Assembly: GCA_017506865.1 (NCBI GenBank)
Contig: JAFCMP010000530.1
Span: 186,001 to 250,000 of the forward strand
DNA from: Tribonema minus
Lineage: Eukaryota > Sar > Xanthophyceae > Tribonematales > Tribonemataceae
Reading direction: 5' to 3'
Length of the DNA stretch: 64,000 nt
Numbering within the stretch: position 1 is the stretch's first letter; the number at the start of each line of letters is the position of its first letter. Shown piece by piece: positions 881-47,204 of the stretch. The notes below the pieces were generated by a model. It had not been told where the DNA came from, made no database searches, and saw nothing but the letters and a program-made list of their open reading frames with translations. The translations under genes were made by a program, and so were the position numbers.

Positions 881-3800
881 CGTCACCGGCCTCCTGGAAG
901 CAGCTGCGGTACCGCAGCAGCGCCGGGAAGGGGACGGCCCCCTTGTCCACGCAGTACAGGACAAACTGGCAGTCGCTGCAGGCACTGTGCACGCGGAACA
1001 GCTGCGGGGGCGGCGGCGGGGCGGAGCAGCAGCGGCGGCAGAGGCAGCAGAGCAGTGCAGCAGCAGCAGAGCGGCGTGTCGTGGTCAGTCGGTGCAAGTG
1101 CATCACCAATAGTGCGCACGGGGCTGCGCACGACAGTCCTGCGGAGCGCGACATCAATGCACTGTTGACACAGTCTTTTACAAAGTGTGTATGCCTCATC
1201 CGTGAAGGTCGAGCCTCGATTCTCGCCGGCTGACGATTTGTATCAGCTACGGGCGCTATCCCCAGTGAATTGCAAGAAGGAATGAGCACTTCTTCTATGG
1301 TGACACTTTGATTACTGTGAGAAATGACTGGCAAAAGTGCATACATCACACAATCAGCGACCAGTGCATGCACAGGGGGAGGGGCGGGGGGTATGACAGG
1401 TCACTAGCATTCGGTATGCGGCCCAGCAGCAGCAGCAGTCATCCAGCAGAGCTCTACAATCTGTCGGCGCTGAGCTTCGAGAGACTGAGCCTCTGTCATG
1501 TGAGCCGCATAGCACGTGCGGAGTTCCTCATCGCAGCACACAGCGCCGGTCTCAACGCATTGGCGGTGGGTGCGCTCTCATGCCGGCATTGGCAGTCACT
1601 GGCGCCAGCAGTCACTGCAGTGAGTGCTGGGCGCACCCGCGAGGGGGGGGGGGGCGGGGCTCACCTGATTTGCGATGCCGTCGAAGAACTCGTAGTGGTC
1701 GTTGGGGTGTATGACGGACCCCCAGACGTCGCGCACGTTCTCGGCGTACATCTGCGTCCCAGCGGCAGCAGCGGGCGCGGCGGCGGCGCGTGAGAGCGGC
1801 GCGCGAGCAGCAGCAGCAGCAGCAGCAGCAGCGGACAGAGCGCGCGAGGTGCAGGCGGCGGCGGTGCCGCAGAAGGCTGCAATTCGCCGACGATCGGCTG
1901 CGGGGGAGGCGTTGCACCGCCTCCGCGGCAGCGTCGCACGCGGATAGCGTCGGCGCCGCCAGGAAAGCGCAACTCATGTGACCTACAGCTGGTCGTCCGT
2001 GGCACGCTTTGCACTAGGTAGCAGTGCTGTGAACGAAATATGCAAAGGGTGGCTACACGGCGATGTTGCACATGCGCAATGGAAGGTCACAGGCGCATGC
2101 CCCCCCCGCCTCGGGCCACACACTCCAACGACGCCCGTCAACCGCGCGCCGCGGGCCGCGTCTTACAACCTGAGCATGGACATCTCTCATCAATGTGCCA
2201 GTATCTCAACCAACAAAGAGCGTTTGAGACGATCGCGAGCAACACCTCTGAGCGGGATGCAAAATCCGGCTCAGAGTGCTTGACGGCGATCACCCTTTTG
2301 ACTTGAGGCCATGGAATTCAAACGTGCTGAGGGCCGCACGAGGAGAACCGTTGAGTCCCATCGGTGAGCCAGGAAAACAAGCACTCGAAGTACGTAGGCG
2401 ACGTCGCGTCACACCGCTCAGCGCACCTCGTCCGCCTCCGGGCCCGACGTGAACAGCGTCGCCCACAGCTCGTTGTGGATGAAGCGGCAGCGCCCGCGCA
2501 CGACGAGGCGCTGGCTCACGGCGCACAGGTCGCTCGCCAGCGCCTGCACGTGCTCGGGGAGCGGCACCTCGAGGGGGCCCATGGGCGGGGGGCGCCGCCG
2601 CCGCGCAGCCTGCGGTGGCGGCGCGACATCATAGTTCGGGCGGCGGCGCGTTCAGACAGAGACATTCAATGCGGCACGCTCGCTGCTGCGAGCTGGCGGT
2701 TGGCGCTGCGGCTGCTGAGAGCATGCGTGCGCGAGCGGCAGCGGCGGCGTTGAACGCCGGCGGCGCTCGTATGGGCGCTGCATCCCCTTTTTGATGTGTG
2801 TAGGGAGCAGGGGGCAATGAGCGGTGACAGTTCGGCGCGGCCTTTGCGGGGCGTCATCGCAGCCAAGTTGAGCGGCAGCGCGTCAGCATCTGCGCCGCAG
2901 GGGCCGTGCTGGGACAGCGTTCGTCACCGGCGGGCGCGCTCGCGCAAGCGCCGTCTGTCATGTGCCGTGAGAAGGTTGATCGTCTGACCCTGCGAGCCGT
3001 TGCAAGACGAGGGTATTGAGCTGTGGCCCAAGCGGAGCCCCTGACGGCTCTTGGGTATGCATCTCTCATGGTGCAAAGGGCGCGAGACAGAGGGCTGCAG
3101 AGGGCGAACCACCGCACATGGCCGCAACGATTTGCTTTCACTCGGTACACAGCCGACTGCTGCAGCGGTGCGCGACGCGTCCGCCTATCAGCCGCAGCTG
3201 CTGCTGCAGCGAGGGGGCGAGCGAGCTCGCACTGCGCGCCGCGGCCAGAGCCGACAGCTCTCGCACTCGCGCCGGCACGTGTGCAGACCCATGGCGTCGC
3301 CGTGCGGCAAAAGCCATGCTGCTGAGCGCAGAGCGCCGCACTTCAACTTGACAGAGGCGTGCTAACCAACAACGCTGAAGGGCGCCGATGCGGCGCCGCG
3401 CACCTGCTGCGGCGGGCAGCTGACCAGCGCTTGGTAGCGCGCCTGGAGGTCCGGGTCGTCCGTGATGCGCTCCTGCGGCAGGCCGAGCATCTGCGCCATC
3501 GCCATGGTCTTCTGCATCTGCGCGGGGGCGACCGCGGCACGACGGCGGCGGCGGCAGCGGCGTCGATGTGCGCGGCGGTCAATTTACGCGAGCTGTAGAT
3601 AGCGGCGGCGCAGGCTGCTGCGAGGCGCAAGCTGCGTGCCACGCTGCGCGCAGCACTTGCAATCGTTGTTCGTGGCACTGCGCGTGGTCATTGCGCGTGC
3701 CCCCGCCACGCGACTGTCACTGTGTGCAGGCCTGTCATGCGAGGTTCTGGCAGTGGCAGATGCATCCACGGCTCGTGAGCTCTGTTCTGTGAGCAGACGC

Positions 3801-16291: not shown

Positions 16292-17111
16292 AGTTTGCTC
16301 GTCCGCCGTGGTTTGTAGGCCTGCTGCCCTTGCGTACTGACGCTGCTGTCGCTGGCGCAGTGCGCATCGCACTTACTCCGCCCTTGTGTCTTTGTGCCGT
16401 TGCATTTATGGTGTATCAGTAGTTTCTTCATGTCATGCGTTTCACAGGGCCAGCCCGGGTGGGCGGCCCTTGTATATGATGCAGTCGGCCCTGCGGTGCT
16501 GCTCCGTACTGTAGTACCTACTACTTTGGAAGCGTTGACATTCATGAATCAGTCGATTACCTGCTGACGAGCGGAACGCGCCGTCATGCACACAGAAGCA
16601 ACACACGCTGGAAACCGCGCAAAGCATTGAACAATAAAACACGTATGCTAGTTGGCTAGGCCTTTCTTGCTTTTGGTGGTCCGTCTGCCGATGCATTGCT
16701 GCGACTATGCATTCGCATGCTCACATTGGCACTCCGTGGACCATTTCAATATCTGGTCAACACTCATTGACTTCATGCCATGTGCTGAATACGAACGAAT
16801 AGGATATGATATACACTCATTGACTTCATGCCATGTGCTGAATACGAACGAATAGGATATGATGTGTCCACCATGGTGGACGGCCGTGCTCAACTTTCAT
16901 CACGGCAGTGCTCAGTTGTCTCGCTGCTCGCCGTGTCGACTCAGTGCTGTAGTGTGCTGCAGGATTGGAGGATTGCTGACAAGTGCTGTTATCGGCGCTG
17001 CACCACTGCAGCAGTGGCTTACAGGGATCGCCGCTGGTGTGGCAGGCCCGCAACCCTTCAAGATCTTCCAGAGCAGAGCTAGGCAGCCAGCAAGTGGTGG
17101 CGGTCGTGGTC
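16292..17111. other. Intergenic spacer with a 53-bp tandem repeat
   Basis: No exon is supported. It begins directly in an AAGTTGAAGTTT motif overlapping the mutase stop codon. The piece 16761-16866 is a tandem duplication with a period of 53 bp (cactcattgacttcatgcca at 16761 and 16814). The right part should carry the promoter and 5' UTR of the RNA-binding protein gene; the open frame there extends upstream of the chosen ATG to 16983. Confidence 0.55.
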
Positions 17112-39262: not shown

Positions 39263-40511
39263 CGGCGGCGCGCGCTGCGCCGCCGGCACCCGCTTGATCA
39301 TTTTTAGCCGCCACCCGGCGTCGTTTCGGCGACGCCACAGGCCGCTCTTGCGCCCCCAGGCGGGCGGCGACGTCAGAACGACCGTCGCCGTCGTTGCTGC
39401 CGCCGCCGCAGCAGGGCGTGACACTGCTGCCGCCGCTGCCGCCGCCGCCGCCCGCTGCCGGCGCTTGCTGTTCCATGTCTACACACTCGCTCGCACACCA
39501 CCGGCGCTGGCCACCGCAGCCGTCCGCTGCGGAGGCGTGAAGGCACAGAACAGGCGCGCGCGCGCTGCCGCTCCTCGGAACACCTGCTCACCGCAACAGC
39601 AGCAGCAGCCGCCGCAAGTGCCGGTCGCCGTCAAGCCCGCTAAGAGGAGGAATGGAGCGTGGACGTCATTGCGGGTGGCTCAACACCGACAAGGGGGACA
39701 CACAAGTCCCGACGCGGTTTGTCCTTTGGTGCCGCACAGATGGGGATACTTGGGGGACGGGGGAGACTCGGGGGAAAGGTAGCATACGGATTGCTGAGGG
39801 GGGGAGGGGGGGGGCACATCACAGTACATAGGGATGCTCCTGGGATGGGGGGGTTTTGGGGGGGGGGGGGGGGGGGGGGGGGGCTGCACAGGTGCTGGCT
39901 GCCGTGCGGTGGCCGTTCGTAAATAGAGGTCTTGTGTGACGTGTGCCGTCTGAGGCACTACATCAGGGCCTTGCTGCCCAAATCATGCACTGCAATGTGT
40001 TTGCAACAAACTGCTTGCACGTGCGAAGCGTATGCTTCTTGGAAGTACATAGTGCAAGACCTTAACATGCCGTCATGAGCGTGTCTATGCCTTTTAACAA
40101 GGTGCCAGAATGATCGCGCTGACAGCCAGCGTCCACTTTGCAGTTCTTTGACGCTGTTATTTATGAAAGGTGACGCTGTCGTGTGCTGCCAGCAGTGGGG
40201 TAGAGGTATTGAGTCCGCCTACCAGGATGTTCAACTGCCATAACCGTCAAGCATGGAAAATCGCGTTACTGCCTTGTGCTCCAACAGCTGTAGAGAGGTT
40301 TTGCAAATGTGACGCACAATCCAGAGCACGCATGGGGTGCGCAAGCCCGGTGCATGCAGCCAGCGTATTGCTGCATGGCATGCGAAGAGGCGCGCTTTGT
40401 GCGCAGCCAGCCTTGTACTTGAGGTACTGTATCCGTCCATCAGCCACTGGCGACTTCAGCGCGCCGCGCCCTTTGTTGGTGCAACGAGACGCGCCCTCCG
40501 CCCCGCGCTAG
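39263..40511. other. Convergent intergenic region with long G run
   Basis: It lies between the 3' ends of casein kinase 1 and the minus-strand TPR/F-box-like gene. A G-rich region at 39800-39882 includes an uninterrupted run of more than 20 G at about 39858-39881. Reading frames at 39294-39782 look like GC-rich 3' UTR or chance. No gene is supported. Confidence 0.5.
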
Positions 40512-43022
40512 CTACGCGAACACGTGCTCCGCCCACGCATCCAGCTGCGGCAGCGTGTAAGCGTAGAGCCGGAGCATCGCGTAGTAGCCCGCAAACAGCT
40601 CCGCGAGGCCCTCCACGCTGCCGACGGCGCGCTCGAATGCCGCCGCCGCGCGCGCCCCGCTGCAGCAGGTACGCCGCGAGCGTGTGTTCGTTGGCGACGA
40701 GGCCGGCGTGGCGCTCCTTGCGCGCCGCGCACACCGTCGCGAGCGCCACCAGCGGCGCGAGGTACCCCCACCGGTTGTGAGCGAGCCAGTCGCCGACGGG
40801 GCGCAGCGCCGCGCGCCACACGCGCAGCGCGCGCGCGTCGTCCGCCTCCAGCGCCGCCCGCACCGCGGCAGCGTCTGCGACGTACGCGTAGTGCGCGCGC
40901 GCGGTGCCGGGGGTCGCGCGCGGCGGCAGCTGCGCGGCGACCTCCGCGCGCTGCTGCGGCGCGAGGGCCGCGGGCGCGCGCTCCGCGGGCAGGCGCCGCG
41001 GCAGCGTCATCCAGAAGTTCCCGAACGCGCGCGTGTGCCACGTGACGGCGGCGCCGACGGCGGTCTCGTGCATGCGCGGCCCGCCGAACGTGAAGAAGAG
41101 CGTGTACAGCGTCTGCAGCGCGGCTTGCGTGAACTCGGCGACGGCGGCGGCGGTGGCGGCGGCGGCGCGCGGCGCGTGCACGCGCCGCAGCCCCGCCGCG
41201 ACGACTCCCGCGAAATCGTGCGCCACGAGCTCCTGCAGGTAAGCCTCGACGCGCGCGCGCGGCGTGCCCCCAGCCTCCCCGCATCGCAGAGCTGCACGAA
41301 GGGAGCGCTCCTGTCGAAGACGTCCTCCCCCATGCCGTTCATGCAGCGCGTGCGCGCCGCCAGCGGCGCCGTGAGCTCGCGCAGCAGGAACTTGACGGCG
41401 CGCACGTCGCCGACGCACGAGACCGCCTCCTGCAGCGGCGCGCGCGCCGCGCACGCGCGCCAGAACGCGCAGCGCTCCGCCTCCGACGCGTGCAGGCCCA
41501 CGGCGCACATGAGCGCCAGCGCGACCATGCTGGGGTCCGCCGCCGCCGCCGCCGCGCCGCACGCCGCCACCAGCGCCGCCACCGCCGCCGCCAGCGCCTC
41601 CAGCGCCGCGCAGGCGTCCGCGTTGGTGGCGGCGTCGCAGTACGTGCGCACGGCCGCGTCCAGTCCTGCGGTGACCGCTGCTGGCGGCAGTGCCGCTGCT
41701 GCGGCGGAGCGGCCCAGGCTGCGCGCGAGCTGGCAGCGCACCGCGCGGCGCACGCGCATGCGGCGGTGCAGCGACCCGCCACCGAAGACGCGGCAGGTGC
41801 GCTCCAAGGAAGCCAGGTCCGGTGGGCGCATGTACTCAGCGAGCGCCATGGCAGCATCTTGCGTCGTCGCCGCCAGCGCCCTGAGCACAGGCCCAAGAGA
41901 CGCCAGCTCGGCGGCAGTAGCGGCGGCGGCGGCGGTGCTGCTGCGCGCCGGGGCGCCGTCGGCAGCAGCAGCGCCGGCAGCAGCGGCGCTGCTGCTGGCC
42001 CCACCCTGTCCTGGCGACTCTTGCAGCAGCTGCTGCTGCACAGGGGTATCCCGCGCAGCGTCGGCGTCATTGGCCAGTTGCAGCTGCGCTGCCTCCTGAC
42101 GCCGGCACTCGGCGGCATCGCGCGGCATGGGGGCGAGGTCGGCGGCGACGGCGAACGCGGCGCTGGCCTCCGCGTGGCGGCGCAGCGCGGCGAGCGCGGC
42201 GCCGCGCCGCGCGTGCGCCTTGAACCACGACGGATCCGCCGCGACGGCGCGCACCGCGAGGTTGAGCGCGTGGTGGGCGTTGCCCCTGCGCAGCTCGATT
42301 TGGCTCATGTAGGCGTTCACCTTGCCGAGCTCCAGGGCGCACGCCTTGCGCCGCTCCTGCGGCAGCTGCAGCACGCCGGCCCACATGCTGAGCATGAGGC
42401 CTGTGGCCACGTCGTACAGGCGCAGCGCCCCCGGCAGATCTTTCGCGGAGAACTTGAGAGCCGCGCTTTCCTTGAGCACGATAAAGCGTGATCCAGCTTC
42501 TAGAATCCCAGCGGCGATATCCGCGCCTGGTGGCGCTGGCCCCAAGCAGGCACACGTGTCGCCGATATACATTCGGAGAGCCGTGCGCACACTGGCGATA
42601 GTGCCGCCACAGAGCTGGAATTGGGCGAGGAAGGCCTTGCCGGCTGGCTGCTGCGATTCGCTGCTGCCTTCCGGTGCCAGAATGGCGCGAAGTCGCCTAA
42701 CGCCCAGGCAACTGCAGGCACTCAGCGTAGCGGCTAGCACCGCAAGACGGCGGCAGTCTTGCAGCTGAACCTTGAGTGCCGATTCCACTGCACAGCTGGC
42801 CATGATGTTGGCCGTGGTGTCTGCGAAATCCGAGTCCTCGATGCCTGTGACCGGAAATGTGGGGGACGTCAAGGTATCGAGAGCCAACCTAGCGCCAACC
42901 TTGCAGTCACTCCAAACGTTGGAGGGTGCTCCTAGGCACAGTAGCCGGGCCACTGCATGAACCATTTCTGATCCCTCCTCAAGTTCGGGCCTGGGGTCGC
43001 CATGTCTGCAGGTCGCCGACAT
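40512..43022 (-). CDS. TPR / F-box-like protein, paralogue A, intronless, frame broken twice
   Basis: Function unknown; the architecture suggests a protein-protein adaptor, possibly in ubiquitination. The start at 43022 was chosen because MSATCRHGD then aligns with the start of paralogue B; upstream codons to 43121 have no counterpart. An N-terminal Cys-containing helical part (about 1-180) is followed by TPR-like helices (FSAKDLPGALRLYDVA; LELGKVNAYMSQIELRRGN; AHARRGAALAALRRHAEASA), an Ala/Gln linker, an F-box-like piece (LAEYMRPPDLASLERTCRVF), and a helical Ala-rich C-terminal half ending EHVFA. Frame is lost near 41275 (one G short in a G run) and near 40655 (about 20 bases missing relative to paralogue B). 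With those two corrections it reads to the stop at 40512-40514. It has no introns, unlike every other gene here. It is either a decaying gene or carries assembly indels. Confidence 0.65.
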
Positions 43023-43287
43023 GAAGTTGCCCTGCTGAGTCTGCAGCCCTGCTGCACTGCTGATATCCCTTGGTGAATCTCTCGAGCAGCAAATTTTCAC
43101 CTGCGCCTTCAAATTTGACACCCTGAAGTTGCCACGAGGCTGCTGCTGTCTCTACAGGCTCCGCTGCACCGAACACCCGCCGTCAACTTGAAGTTGTGAC
43201 ACGCCATTTTTCGGACCTCGAACGTGACAATAGTGCAAAGCGAGTGACAATAGTGCAGCGCACGACCCAAGTGCTGACAACGACCTA
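43023..43287. promoter_or_regulatory. Bidirectional promoter region between head-to-head paralogues
   Basis: Only 265 bp separate the two inferred start codons, so any core promoter is shared or overlapping. It contains two exact copies of gtgacaatagtgca at 43224 and 43244 (20-bp spacing, two helical turns) and the motif tcaacttgaagttg at 43184. No clear TATA box was seen. Role inferred from position. Confidence 0.5.
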
Positions 43288-45839
43288 ATGGCGACCACCT
43301 GCAGCCATGGTGCTCCAACGGCTCAAGATGGATCTGAAATGTTTCATGCAATGGTGCGACTGGGAAGCCTCGTTAACGCTCCCGACCATTGCTGGAGTGA
43401 TAGCAAGGCTGGCGCTCTGTTCGCTCTCAACACCATGACGTCCCCCGCAGCAAACTTCCCCATCGCTGTCGTCGAGGACACGGACAAAGCATTCGCCATG
43501 TCCAGCATCATGGCCGGCCTTGCAGTAGATGCGCTCCAAGCTTCTTCTAAAGAAGTCTTTGCGTCAATGCCGTCGCTTTACGCTGCTAGCCGCTACGGTG
43601 GACGCCTGCAGCTCCCTGGGCGTTGCCCAGCTCCGCGCCATCCTTGCATCGGAGAGCAGCAGTGTGGCGCACAAGCCAGCCGGCAAGGCCTGCCTCGCCC
43701 ATCTCGAGCTTTGCGGTGGCGGCCGCGCCAGCGTGCTGAAGGCATTACGAATGTACACAGGCGGCGTCTGTGACTGTCTGGGGCCCTACTCACCAGGCGC
43801 AGACGTCGCGGATGAACTCTGGGGCGTGGCTCGCGGCTCAGCATGCTAAAGGAGGGCGCAAACCTCAAGTTCTCAGCGGGAGACCTTACGGGAGCGCTGC
43901 GCGGGTACGGCGTGGCGCTGGGCGTCGTGCTGAGAGTGCGCGCAGGCATCTGCGAGCTGCCGAACGAGCGGCGCAACGACTGCTGCCTGGAGCTCGCCAA
44001 GGTGAACGCAAACCTGAGCCTCATCCAGCTGCGCAGGGGGGACGCCGACGCCGCGCTCGAGCGCGCAGCGAGCGCCGCCTCGAACGCGCCGCACTGGTTC
44101 AAGCCCCACGCGCGGCGCGGCGCCGCGCTCGCCGCGCTGCGCCGCCACGCGGAGGCCAGCGCCGCGATCGCCGTCGCCGCCGACCTCGCCGCCACACCGC
44201 GCGACGCCGCCGAGTGTCAGCGCCAGGAGGACGCGCAGCTGCAGCTGGCGCGCGATGCGGAGGCGCTGCAGGGCATTCAGGCGCAACTGCAGCAGCAGCA
44301 GTTGCTGCCAGCCAGCAATGGGGCCAGCTGCAGCGCCGCTGCTGCTGACGGCGGCCCGGCGCGCAGCACCGCCGCCGCTGCTGCCGCGGAGGTCGCGTCC
44401 ATCGGGCGCGTGCTCGGGGCGCTGGAGGAGACCAGTCAGGGTGCCGCAGCGGCGCTCGCCGGCTATATGGTCCCATCGGACCTGGCGCGCCTCGAGCGCA
44501 CCTGCCGCTTCTTCGGCGCCGCTGCGGTGAGTCGTCGCGTGCACGCCCGCCGCGCGGTGCGCTGCCAGCGCGCGTGCAGCCTGGGGTGTCGCTCTGATGT
44601 AGGGCCTGCGGTGACGTCAGCGGCGGCAGCGGCGGCAGCGCAGGCAGCGGCCGCCGGCGTGGAGGCGGCGGTGCGCGCGTACTGCGACGCGGCCAGTGAT
44701 GCGGACGCCTGTTTGGCGCTGGAGAAGCTGGCAGCGGCACTGGCAGCGCTGGTGCACGCGCGCGGAGGCACGCCGGCACAGAACAAGCCGGTGAGGATGG
44801 CGACGAGCAGCGTCGCAGGCGCGGACACGCCAGCGGCGGAGCGGTACGCGTTCTGGTGCGCGTGCGCGGCGCAGGCGGCGCTGCAGGAGCTGCAGGCGCG
44901 CGTGTTTGACGTGTCCGCCGTCAAGCTGCTGCTTCGCGAGCCAACAGCGCCGCTGGAGGCGAAGGCGCGCAGCATGCGTGTTATGGCGCAGGGCGTCATG
45001 CTCATGCAGGATGAATTCGCGGAGGCTTGCGAAGCGGGGACGCTGGGCAGCTGGCCCCCTTCTCAAGTCGAATCCTTCCTGCAGCAACTGTTCCGCTACG
45101 GACTCGTGAGCGAGGTCGCGGCGTCGCCGCGGTGGGCGCTCGACCCGCGCCGCCGCCGCCGCCGCAGCCCTGCCCGGGCACGCCACCGTCGCGTCCGGCC
45201 TCATCAGCTCCGCGTTCGTGATGCTCGCAACGCTGCTCAACGCGTACGGGCACGCGCTCAGGCGCTCCGCTGCCGGCACGGACGCCGCGCTGCACGTGCA
45301 GGCCTTCGGAGCGCTGCACGCGGCGCTGCCGCCGCGCCTCCCCGCGGCGCGCGCGCCGCCTGACCTCAGCGACGCGCAGAGCGCTGCAATCGCCGCGCGG
45401 CTGCCCGCGGACGCGACGCCCGGCGCCGTGTGCGCGCACCTCGCGTACGGCGTCGCCGCCGCCGACGTGCGCGCGGCGCTGGAGGCGGACGCGCGCGCGC
45501 TGCGCGTGTGGCGCGACGCGCTGCGCCCCGTCGGCGACTGGCTCGCGCAACCGGTGGGGCTACCTCGCACCGCTGGCGGCGCTGGTGGTGCTGCACGGCG
45601 CGCGCAGCGAGCGCTGCGGCGGCGTCGTCCCGAACGAGCACACGCTCGCGGCGTACCTGCTGCAGCGCGGCGAGGAGTGGGGCGGCGGGGCGCGCGCGGC
45701 GGCGGCGTTCGAGCGCGCCGTCGGCAGCGCGGAGGGGCTCGCGGAGCTGTTTGCGGGCTACTACGCGATGGTGCTCGACTACAGCCTCATGCTGCCGCGC
45801 CTGGACACGCTCACGGACCGGATCGTGGAACAGCGCTAG
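43288..45839 (+). pseudogene. TPR / F-box-like protein, paralogue B, frame broken four times
   Basis: Divergent head-to-head copy of the gene at 40512-43022, with the same order of parts: N-terminal helical region (DGSEMFHAMVRL), TPR-like helices (FSAGDLTGALRGYGVA; HARRGAALAALRRHAEASA), F-box-like segment (LAGYMVPSDLARLERTCRFF) and C-terminal helices (NEHTLAAYLLQRG; LAELFAGYYAM). Frame changes are needed near 43560, near 43820, between about 45125 and 45170, and near 45557, where two bases are absent relative to paralogue A. Between these points the sequence stays conserved at protein level with paralogue A, so decay, if real, is recent. I found no GT-AG intron that repairs any of the four points. 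The stop is at 45837-45839, and a TGTAA polyadenylation-type signal follows at about 45909. Pseudogene is preferred only because four lesions are many; assembly indels remain possible. Confidence 0.55.
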
Positions 45840-47204
45840 GCGGGGGGGGGGGCGCTTCGCGCGGCAGTGGCAGGCAGAGGCTGCTTGGGGCACACGGACC
45901 GTCACCTGCATGTAAAAGATGTAGTAACAGCTGCAGTGAATGCATGACAGTATACGCAGCAGTTGCGCTTGCCCGCTGCGTAAACGTTTTGGCGCGGCGT
46001 GTGTGTCGGGTACATAGTGCAGCTCCCCAAGCGGGCTCGAGGGCAGCGGCGGAGGGAGTATCATCTGAAATTTCATGCGTCGGTAACTTTGTGAGTGTTC
46101 ATGCATGCTTGATATATCCCAGCAGGTAAAGCTTGCACAAGCTCAATAGGAGCATACGTGTTGTACCTGATATACATGTATGATGTGGTGCAGAATAGCC
46201 CCCAACGGCTTCCTCACCTCAGGCAAAAGTAAATGAACTACAATCTCACTAGTTCGCCGCTATGCAACGGTTTGGGTATGCACCTTGATTAGCAAGGGTG
46301 CATACCACCAGGGAAGTCTGGGTACCAGGGGCCGTTTTTTGATGTCACAGCCTGGGGTGTTCTGGGTACTTCCAAACCCTAAATCTAGGAGCTCTTGGCT
46401 AGATTCACTTGTCCAGCTGGGTAGCAAAACTGAGGGCACCCCACCTACACCTTTGGGTGTCCTGTTAGGCTGGCTATAGCTATAGGGGGGCAACAGGCCC
46501 TTTCTACTATCACATCACCACCACCCTCACCACTAAACGGGACGCTTTATGTACGGAAGTCTGTTTTGCACTGGTTCCTCATTTGATCGTTTGCCGATTA
46601 GTTCTGTGCCCGGGTGTTGTGAATGCAATGTTTCTTGGTACCTGTAGGGCGTTGGTGTTGTACGGTGTGTAGTGTTGTGCAGGTATCGAGATGCATGCGC
46701 ACCTAGCATCGCATCAAGCATTGACAACACCTGGACGCCCATCGCCAATTGTGTTGTAACCTGAATACTCGACGGCACAGTGCTGCGCATAGCGCCTCAG
46801 GGACAGCCACTTGTATGGAGCGAGTAACAAATCTCAGCGAAAAGGAATGTGCTCACCCTTGTGTCTACATGCTGTGCAGGAGCGCTCTCGAGAGGAGCAA
46901 ACATATGACCAGTACCCTGTCGCACACATCGCATCAATGCTCATCGATGTCACCATTTGAGACCTGAGACCATGTCATTTCAGTACGATCAGTTAAAACT
47001 CTGACTTCTTCTTGAAGAACTCACCAACTTCAACCTCAACTCACCATATGGCAACTTCAACCTGAGCCAGGGCAAATTACATGCAGGCAACCTAGCCCTC
47101 ATCTGCAATGTCACTGGTGTCAAGTTGCCATATAGGTCGTCGCAAAGAGTTGGCAGCTGCAGCGAGACGTCTGTGCTGATGGTAGGCCCGCAAGTTTCCG
47201 ATCC
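45840..47204. other. Intergenic stretch containing a perfect hairpin
   Basis: No coding exon is supported. At 46275-46284 and 46297-46306 there are perfectly complementary 10-base arms (ggtatgcacc and ggtgcatacc) with a 12-base spacer. The surrounding 46260-46500 is AT-richer, with a 77-codon minus-strand open frame (46260-46493) of no recognisable family. The region may be a remnant of an unidentified element. Confidence 0.5.

Follow-up and report, generated by a model that had tools for sequence, protein, structure and literature searches.

Probably inactivated members of an intronless TPR and F-box-like gene family, head to head in Tribonema minus

A 64,000-nucleotide stretch of the genome of Tribonema minus (contig JAFCMP010000530.1, positions 186,001 to 250,000; 'the window', whose first base is position 1 below) carries two intronless homologues, copies A and B, whose reading frames are broken and whose 5' ends face each other across a short spacer. 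We think it likely that both are recently inactivated members of a multi-copy, intronless family that combines a tetratricopeptide repeat (TPR) region with an F-box-like segment and evolves by birth and death. As judged from their sequences, the two copies were probably under constraint for most of their divergence and then broken recently, and they probably no longer make full protein. Because the family has at least 18 copies, only two of them intact, A and B look like nothing more unusual than losses in a gene family that turns over rapidly; what the pair teaches by itself is modest, since broken copies are to be expected in a large family. Across the family, intact, freshly broken and heavily decayed copies stand side by side, together with a possible intron-bearing relative, which makes the timing of loss measurable and offers a well-populated example of rapid turnover in an apparently F-box-related family. 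The pair is laid out as follows:

40512–43022, minus strand: copy A, an intronless family member with its ATG at 43022, its stop at 40512 and two frame breaks
43023–43287: spacer of 265 bp between the two ATGs, common to both 5' ends, GC 0.54
43288–45839, plus strand: copy B, an intronless family member with its ATG at 43288, a stop ending at 45839 and four frame breaks

The pair and its frame breaks

A preliminary description of this locus had presented A and B as diverged, inverted homologues meeting head to head at a 265-bp spacer, and the coordinates and blastn comparisons bear this out. The two copies share 71% nucleotide identity across 2,641 columns, with homology running from about 5 bp before both ATGs to about 30 bp past the stops, and their proteins are 58.8% identical over 816 codons read in matched frames. 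Both are very GC-rich (0.73 in A, 0.72 in B), and alignment to an intact paralogue reveals no intron-sized insertion in either. In the spacer, the longest self-complementary match found by blastn is 10 bp.

Two breaks in A and four in B had also been described, at different places in the two copies, and alignment to an intact paralogue with frame changes allowed gives the same numbers (near 41277 and 40650 in A; near 43543, 43814, 45148 and 45548 in B), with no in-frame stop in either copy. Paralogue-guided, frameshift-aware counts of this kind may put breaks in the wrong place, or report too many of them, where linkers are Ala-rich or copies are decayed. A direct frameshift-aware alignment of A to B was set aside as a basis for counting, its middle part having drifted into a wrong, Arg/Trp-rich frame. 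The breaks can be placed within the following limits:

41268–41292, minus strand: A break 1, within a stretch holding a G5 run and a CG repeat, the exact base not being placed
40640–40665, minus strand: A break 2, a net loss of 20 nt relative to B
43540–43550, plus strand: B break 1
43808–43818, plus strand: B break 2
45140–45170, plus strand: B break 3, within a triplet run
45543–45553, plus strand: B break 4

The second break in A, earlier put at a loss of about 20 bases relative to B, indeed consists of a six-codon gap and a frame change of two, and we assign the loss to A because both intact paralogues keep the stretch.

Selection, timing and the reality of the breaks

Selection was judged from pairwise ratios of non-synonymous to synonymous substitution (dN/dS), set against two neutral simulations. 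The A–B value is 0.71 (0.69 in a second estimate), below both simulated neutral values (0.88 ± 0.08 and 1.16 ± 0.10), so the earlier statement that the copies are conserved in protein holds weakly: constraint is detectable and not strong. Copy B compared with C554b gives 0.53 (simulated neutral 0.87 or 1.02), and the young pair C80–C89 gives 0.82, indistinguishable from neutral (0.91 ± 0.15 or 1.14 ± 0.19). Had A and B evolved neutrally since they split, each would be expected to have gathered about 10.5 stops, and neither has any; the relaxed phase would therefore occupy at most roughly 28–29% of the time since the split, a rough upper bound based on half the A–B distance.

An alternative is that A and B are intact, functional genes and that errors in assembling or polishing very GC-rich DNA produced the breaks. 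In favour of this account, all six lesions are frame breaks and none is an in-frame stop, two of them (A break 1 and B break 3) fall within or next to GC-rich simple repeats, and past selection is seen on both copies. Several further observations weigh against recent inactivation: with the two heavily decayed copies set aside, one Poisson rate is enough to describe the break counts (p = 0.46), a pattern expected of random error; across copies, frameshifts show no significant correlation with stops (rho 0.28, p = 0.28); the histone genes used as controls have a GC content of 0.54–0.70, below that of A and B; and an internal stop, of unchecked cause, is listed in 8 of 80 HSP70 and 5 of 52 histone matches. 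In favour of inactivation, the ratio of frameshifts to stops does not differ between A and B together (6:0) and the two clearly decayed copies (21:5; Fisher p = 0.55). Against the error account stand the controls themselves. The 23 best of the 52 histone matches (7,779 bases), taken from the match table and not re-aligned, hold no internal stop and none is split, where about nine breaks would be expected at the A/B rate and six at the family median rate. A frame break in an HSP70 gene would leave neighbouring matches a few bases apart, whereas in 80 matches (25,602 bases) the closest same-strand neighbours are at least 175 bp apart; this search scored 73 of 98 candidates (122 of 191 for kinesin, whose table was viewed by eye and not counted). 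Because no comparable break appears in the HSP70 matches, where 20–30 would be expected, assembly error alone is an unlikely source of the breaks. It would also have to accommodate the 20-nt loss, two family copies free of lesions, the absence from A of a TPR asparagine kept in 16 of 17 copies, and a valine in A's F-box-like segment where 14 of 17 copies have phenylalanine. We accordingly regard intact, functional A and B genes as unlikely.

It is distinctly less probable still that both copies work as shortened proteins, although open frames of suitable length exist: A can be read from its ATG at 43022 for 671 codons, to a stop at 41007–41009, which would yield 671 residues with the TPR region and the F-box-like segment, and the longest open piece of B (43816–45360) has an internal ATG at 43843 that would yield 506 aa. 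Annotated Arabidopsis F-box genes with mutations affecting their C-terminal ends provide a precedent, in the account of these genes in PMC3030570. The product of B would be without the conserved N-terminal region, however, and conserved residues have been lost from A.

The gene family, its origin and its spread

The genome holds many more members, as an earlier suggestion to look for them had anticipated. A protein search of the assembly (158 Mb, 554 contigs) with the longest open piece of B returned 39 matches at E ≤ 0.001, which after merging and re-alignment give at least 18 clear copies including A and B, 16 of them outside the window; coming from a single query, 18 is a lower bound. The copies lie on contigs C527, C80, C89, C135, C153, C279, C3, C334 and C554 (eight contigs besides that of the window), in rows on C135 and C554 and head to head at A/B. 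Only two have an unbroken frame between ATG and stop (C80, 829 aa; C554b, 853 aa), and 16 of the 18 carry at least one lesion, ranging from one break (C89) or one stop with no break (C135b) to heavy decay (C135a, 11 breaks and 4 stops; C334, 10 breaks and one stop). A further decayed remnant, C554e, covers residues 387–744; it is counted among the 18, whereas the tree, flank analysis and rate tests omit it and concern 17 copies. Several paralogues in one genome, two intact and 16 with lesions, are what birth and death produces, and together with a star-like tree they support the earlier suggestion of a rapidly evolving family under decay. Just downstream of C135c (about 205,120), C135 also contains a short telomere-like stretch within the contig (TTAGGGTTAGGG and near copies).

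Insertions of at least 10 residues occur in five of the 18 copies (11, 14, 15, 17 and 62 residues), and in 17 of the 18 nothing reaches intron size. A divergent relative on C70 (134800–138300; parts 2–355 and 1090–3138) has its parts in the order of the family: a TPR segment is followed by an Ala-rich linker and an F-box-like segment, and the C-terminal part resembles the family by eye. At a point where the family reads straight through, the third TPR motif of this relative is interrupted by a 734-bp stretch bounded by GTGAGC on one side and CAG on the other, and joining the sequence across these 734 bp restores the motif in frame. Three of the GT-AG pairs tried keep the frame, and the 734-bp pair is the one that leaves no extra stretch. 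Most simply, the intronless clade would go back to a single founder without introns, and since the C70 relative appears to carry an intron within the homologous TPR region, that founder was perhaps a retrocopy. With 17 of 18 copies lacking intron-sized insertions, the C70 intron speaks for the founder and not for A or B. The retrocopy part of the preliminary description may therefore hold for the founder of the family and is not shown for A and B, and the search it called for, for an intron-containing parent, yields a divergent relative with an apparent intron, on C70. Two observations tell against this view of the origin: the apparent C70 intron is known from one relative and from its DNA sequence, and the 62-residue insertion in C554e is of possible intron size. 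Nor did we find a run of at least 8 A within 600 bp downstream (577 in one case) in any of the 17 copies, although an old tail may have decayed.

Elsewhere, C26 carries a tandem row of three more distantly related genes, spaced at about 6 kb (near 89, 95 and 101 kb), which have the LERTCRFF F-box-like segment in common and appear split over several exons; they are perhaps a second, related expansion.

The tree of 17 copies has short inner branches, and it bears on whether A and B are products of one local inverted duplication, as had been proposed. The head-to-head layout and the homology that starts at both ATGs would suit such an event, and trees constrained to pair A with B are not rejected (AU p = 0.12 and 0.31). 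In the best trees A nonetheless clusters with C135a and C135d (support of 96 from protein and 75 from nucleotide sequences), and neither the spacer nor the 3' flanks show inverted similarity beyond very short matches. An inverted duplication is thus not shown, and we find it doubtful while giving it somewhat more weight than assembly or polishing error. A viral or bacterial origin of the family would also explain the lack of introns and is, in our view, very improbable indeed: no relative of an intact protein was found in viral or other genome contigs, single-protein scans find close relatives only, and a relative with the same layout and an apparent intron sits in the same genome. Inactivation of A and B within a turning-over family thus remains our preferred reading.

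How the family spread can be approached from its flanks. Upstream of B lies one element that recurs in the family:

43184–43205, plus strand: palindrome CAACTTGAAGTTG and, after it, TGACACGCC, the upstream motif that recurs in the family, here pointing towards B, with the motif at −91

On the strand of the gene and 45–125 bp upstream of its start, TGACNCGCC is present in 8 of 17 copies, against 2 of 416 control flank windows of the same length; since inspection of the flanks guided the choice of both the motif and the −125 to −45 window, the chance figure is not a fair probability. Counting the related pairs C80/C89 and C135a/C135d once each leaves six independent cases. Upstream of A, TGACNCGCC does not occur in A's own orientation. 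Over flanks of up to 1,400 bp in the 17 copies, long similarity is confined to C80/C89, C135a and C135d share parts, and a few shorter matches occur besides, apart from trivial overlaps of neighbours. The recurrence of the motif in 8 of 17 copies makes the later spread look DNA-based and suggests duplication that carried promoter sequence along.

The motif was rejected as a family-only marker: TGACNCGCCNNTTTT has 29 sites genome-wide (6 for the reversed control), of which four are at family copies, and it may be typical of a broader class of promoters. On C2, two TGACNCGCCNNTTTT sites (1404200 and 1405808), separated by 1.6 kb, both continue into TTTTGGCGG, and we take these sites to resemble an E2F-type site.

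Also in the spacer upstream of B, a 14-base direct repeat (GTGACAATAGTGCA) is present twice at 43224–43257, and in the 3' flank of A there is a run of 26 G (39858–39883). Downstream of B, 74 bp past its last aligned codon, lies a TGTAA (45911–45915), resembling the green-algal poly(A) signal; TGTAA occurs within 100 bp downstream in only two of 17 family copies.

The encoded protein and its possible role

Family alignment and profile comparison place two recognizable parts in each copy:

42120–42515, minus strand: TPR region of A, limits approximate; alone among 17 copies, A has Tyr in place of the clamp-like Asn of the second motif
43816–44210, plus strand: TPR region of B, limits approximate; K, N, N, K and R at the clamp-like positions
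41778–41861, minus strand: F-box-like segment of A
44437–44520, plus strand: F-box-like segment of B

Single Pfam TPR models all score below their cut-offs, and the TPR assignment comes from a profile of 20 family pieces, which matches co-chaperone TPR domains in PDB (STIP1, E = 1.5e-6; SGTA, 3.1e-5; SGT1, 6.8e-4). The carboxylate clamp is defined as K5 N9 – N6 – K2 R6, following the passages on the clamp in PMC2939883. With positions placed by eye against the Hop TPR1 sequence, four of the five are conserved in the family (K in 16 of 16, N in 16 of 17, K or R in 17 of 17, R in 16 of 16); in C70, read likewise by eye, the K and R positions of the third motif are Met and Cys.

The second segment is plausibly F-box-like, which is not proven: profile scores are weak and Pfam is below cut-off, and sliding segments rank it best. 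Against a profile of true F-boxes (16 of the 20 PF12937 matches listed genome-wide), hhalign gives the segment E 6.6e-4 with a probability of 27%, or E 3.3e-4 and 38% when the relatives are added. A whole-family profile finds its best match to true F-boxes on the same segment (E = 0.028, probability 2%). When the family profile was cut into 43 sliding segments, the three best overlap and hold the F-box-like segment (19.6–20.4), a partly overlapping fourth scores 13.8 and the best other 13.0. In two of the three C26 relatives PF12937 reaches E 0.13 and 0.18 (profile positions 15–33), again below cut-off, and C70 has no PF12937 match. Several results argue against reading the protein as a clamp TPR joined to an F-box: 14 of 16 copies have Ala at the N9-like position of the first motif, where B has Asn and C279b has Ser; PF12937 stays below its curated cut-off, with E 0.23 in one of 20 family pieces; none of the 20 listed genome-wide matches lies at a family copy; a PDB search with a 65-column alignment of the F-box-like segment gave no match up to E = 10; and AlphaFold prediction returned a pLDDT of 54 for the segment and 40 for the first 584 residues of A combined with pieces of B, both too poor to be fit for a fold search.

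Put together, these features allow a scenario in which all introns of the founder disappeared in a single event, probably because it was retrocopied from a gene resembling the C70 relative; the founder gained or kept the short promoter element and gave rise to a family that then spread by DNA duplication. In the intact members, the F-box-like segment would be the part that docks on Skp1 of an SCF ubiquitin ligase, and partners would be bound by the TPR region, possibly the C-terminal tails of Hsp70/Hsp90, which would make these proteins predicted chaperone-linked SCF substrate receptors. In full, the proposal has a single retroposed founder producing a family of at least 18 such predicted receptors that combine a near-complete TPR clamp with an F-box-like segment and share a short promoter element, and it has these copies disappearing one after another, only two having been found fully intact. 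It is speculative, and as a whole more likely wrong than right.

Known proteins share individual parts of this layout. Dia2/Pof3 of yeasts likewise have TPRs before an F-box, but have leucine-rich repeats after it. STIP1/Hop and SGTA resemble the family in sequence over the second and third TPR motifs; they are not known to have an F-box. Carboxylate-clamp TPR proteins in general share the four conserved clamp positions and differ at the first-motif Asn, and for the family binding is predicted only; among them, a rice protein joins a clamp TPR with an FBD and an F-box, according to an entry in PMC2939883. The closest likeness in mode of evolution is with the plant F-box (FBX) superfamily, for which the relevant sections of PMC3030570 describe rapid birth and death, numerous pseudogenes with frameshifts or premature stops, and relaxed selection in narrowly distributed members, whereas Chlamydomonas is given there as having 88 FBX loci and only five pseudogenes. 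The present family differs from that superfamily in its weak F-box match, its lack of introns and the position of its TPR region ahead of the F-box-like segment. Nothing direct on such a family in green algae was found in the literature, which does not show that the family is unpublished.

A Pfam scan of the window's proteins covered ten long open reading frames. A 732-codon open frame at 16980–19175 matches the SAP domain (E = 3.2e-7) and is possibly another long uninterrupted coding stretch; a perfect 53-bp tandem duplication (16760–16863) lies at the edge of a long open region.

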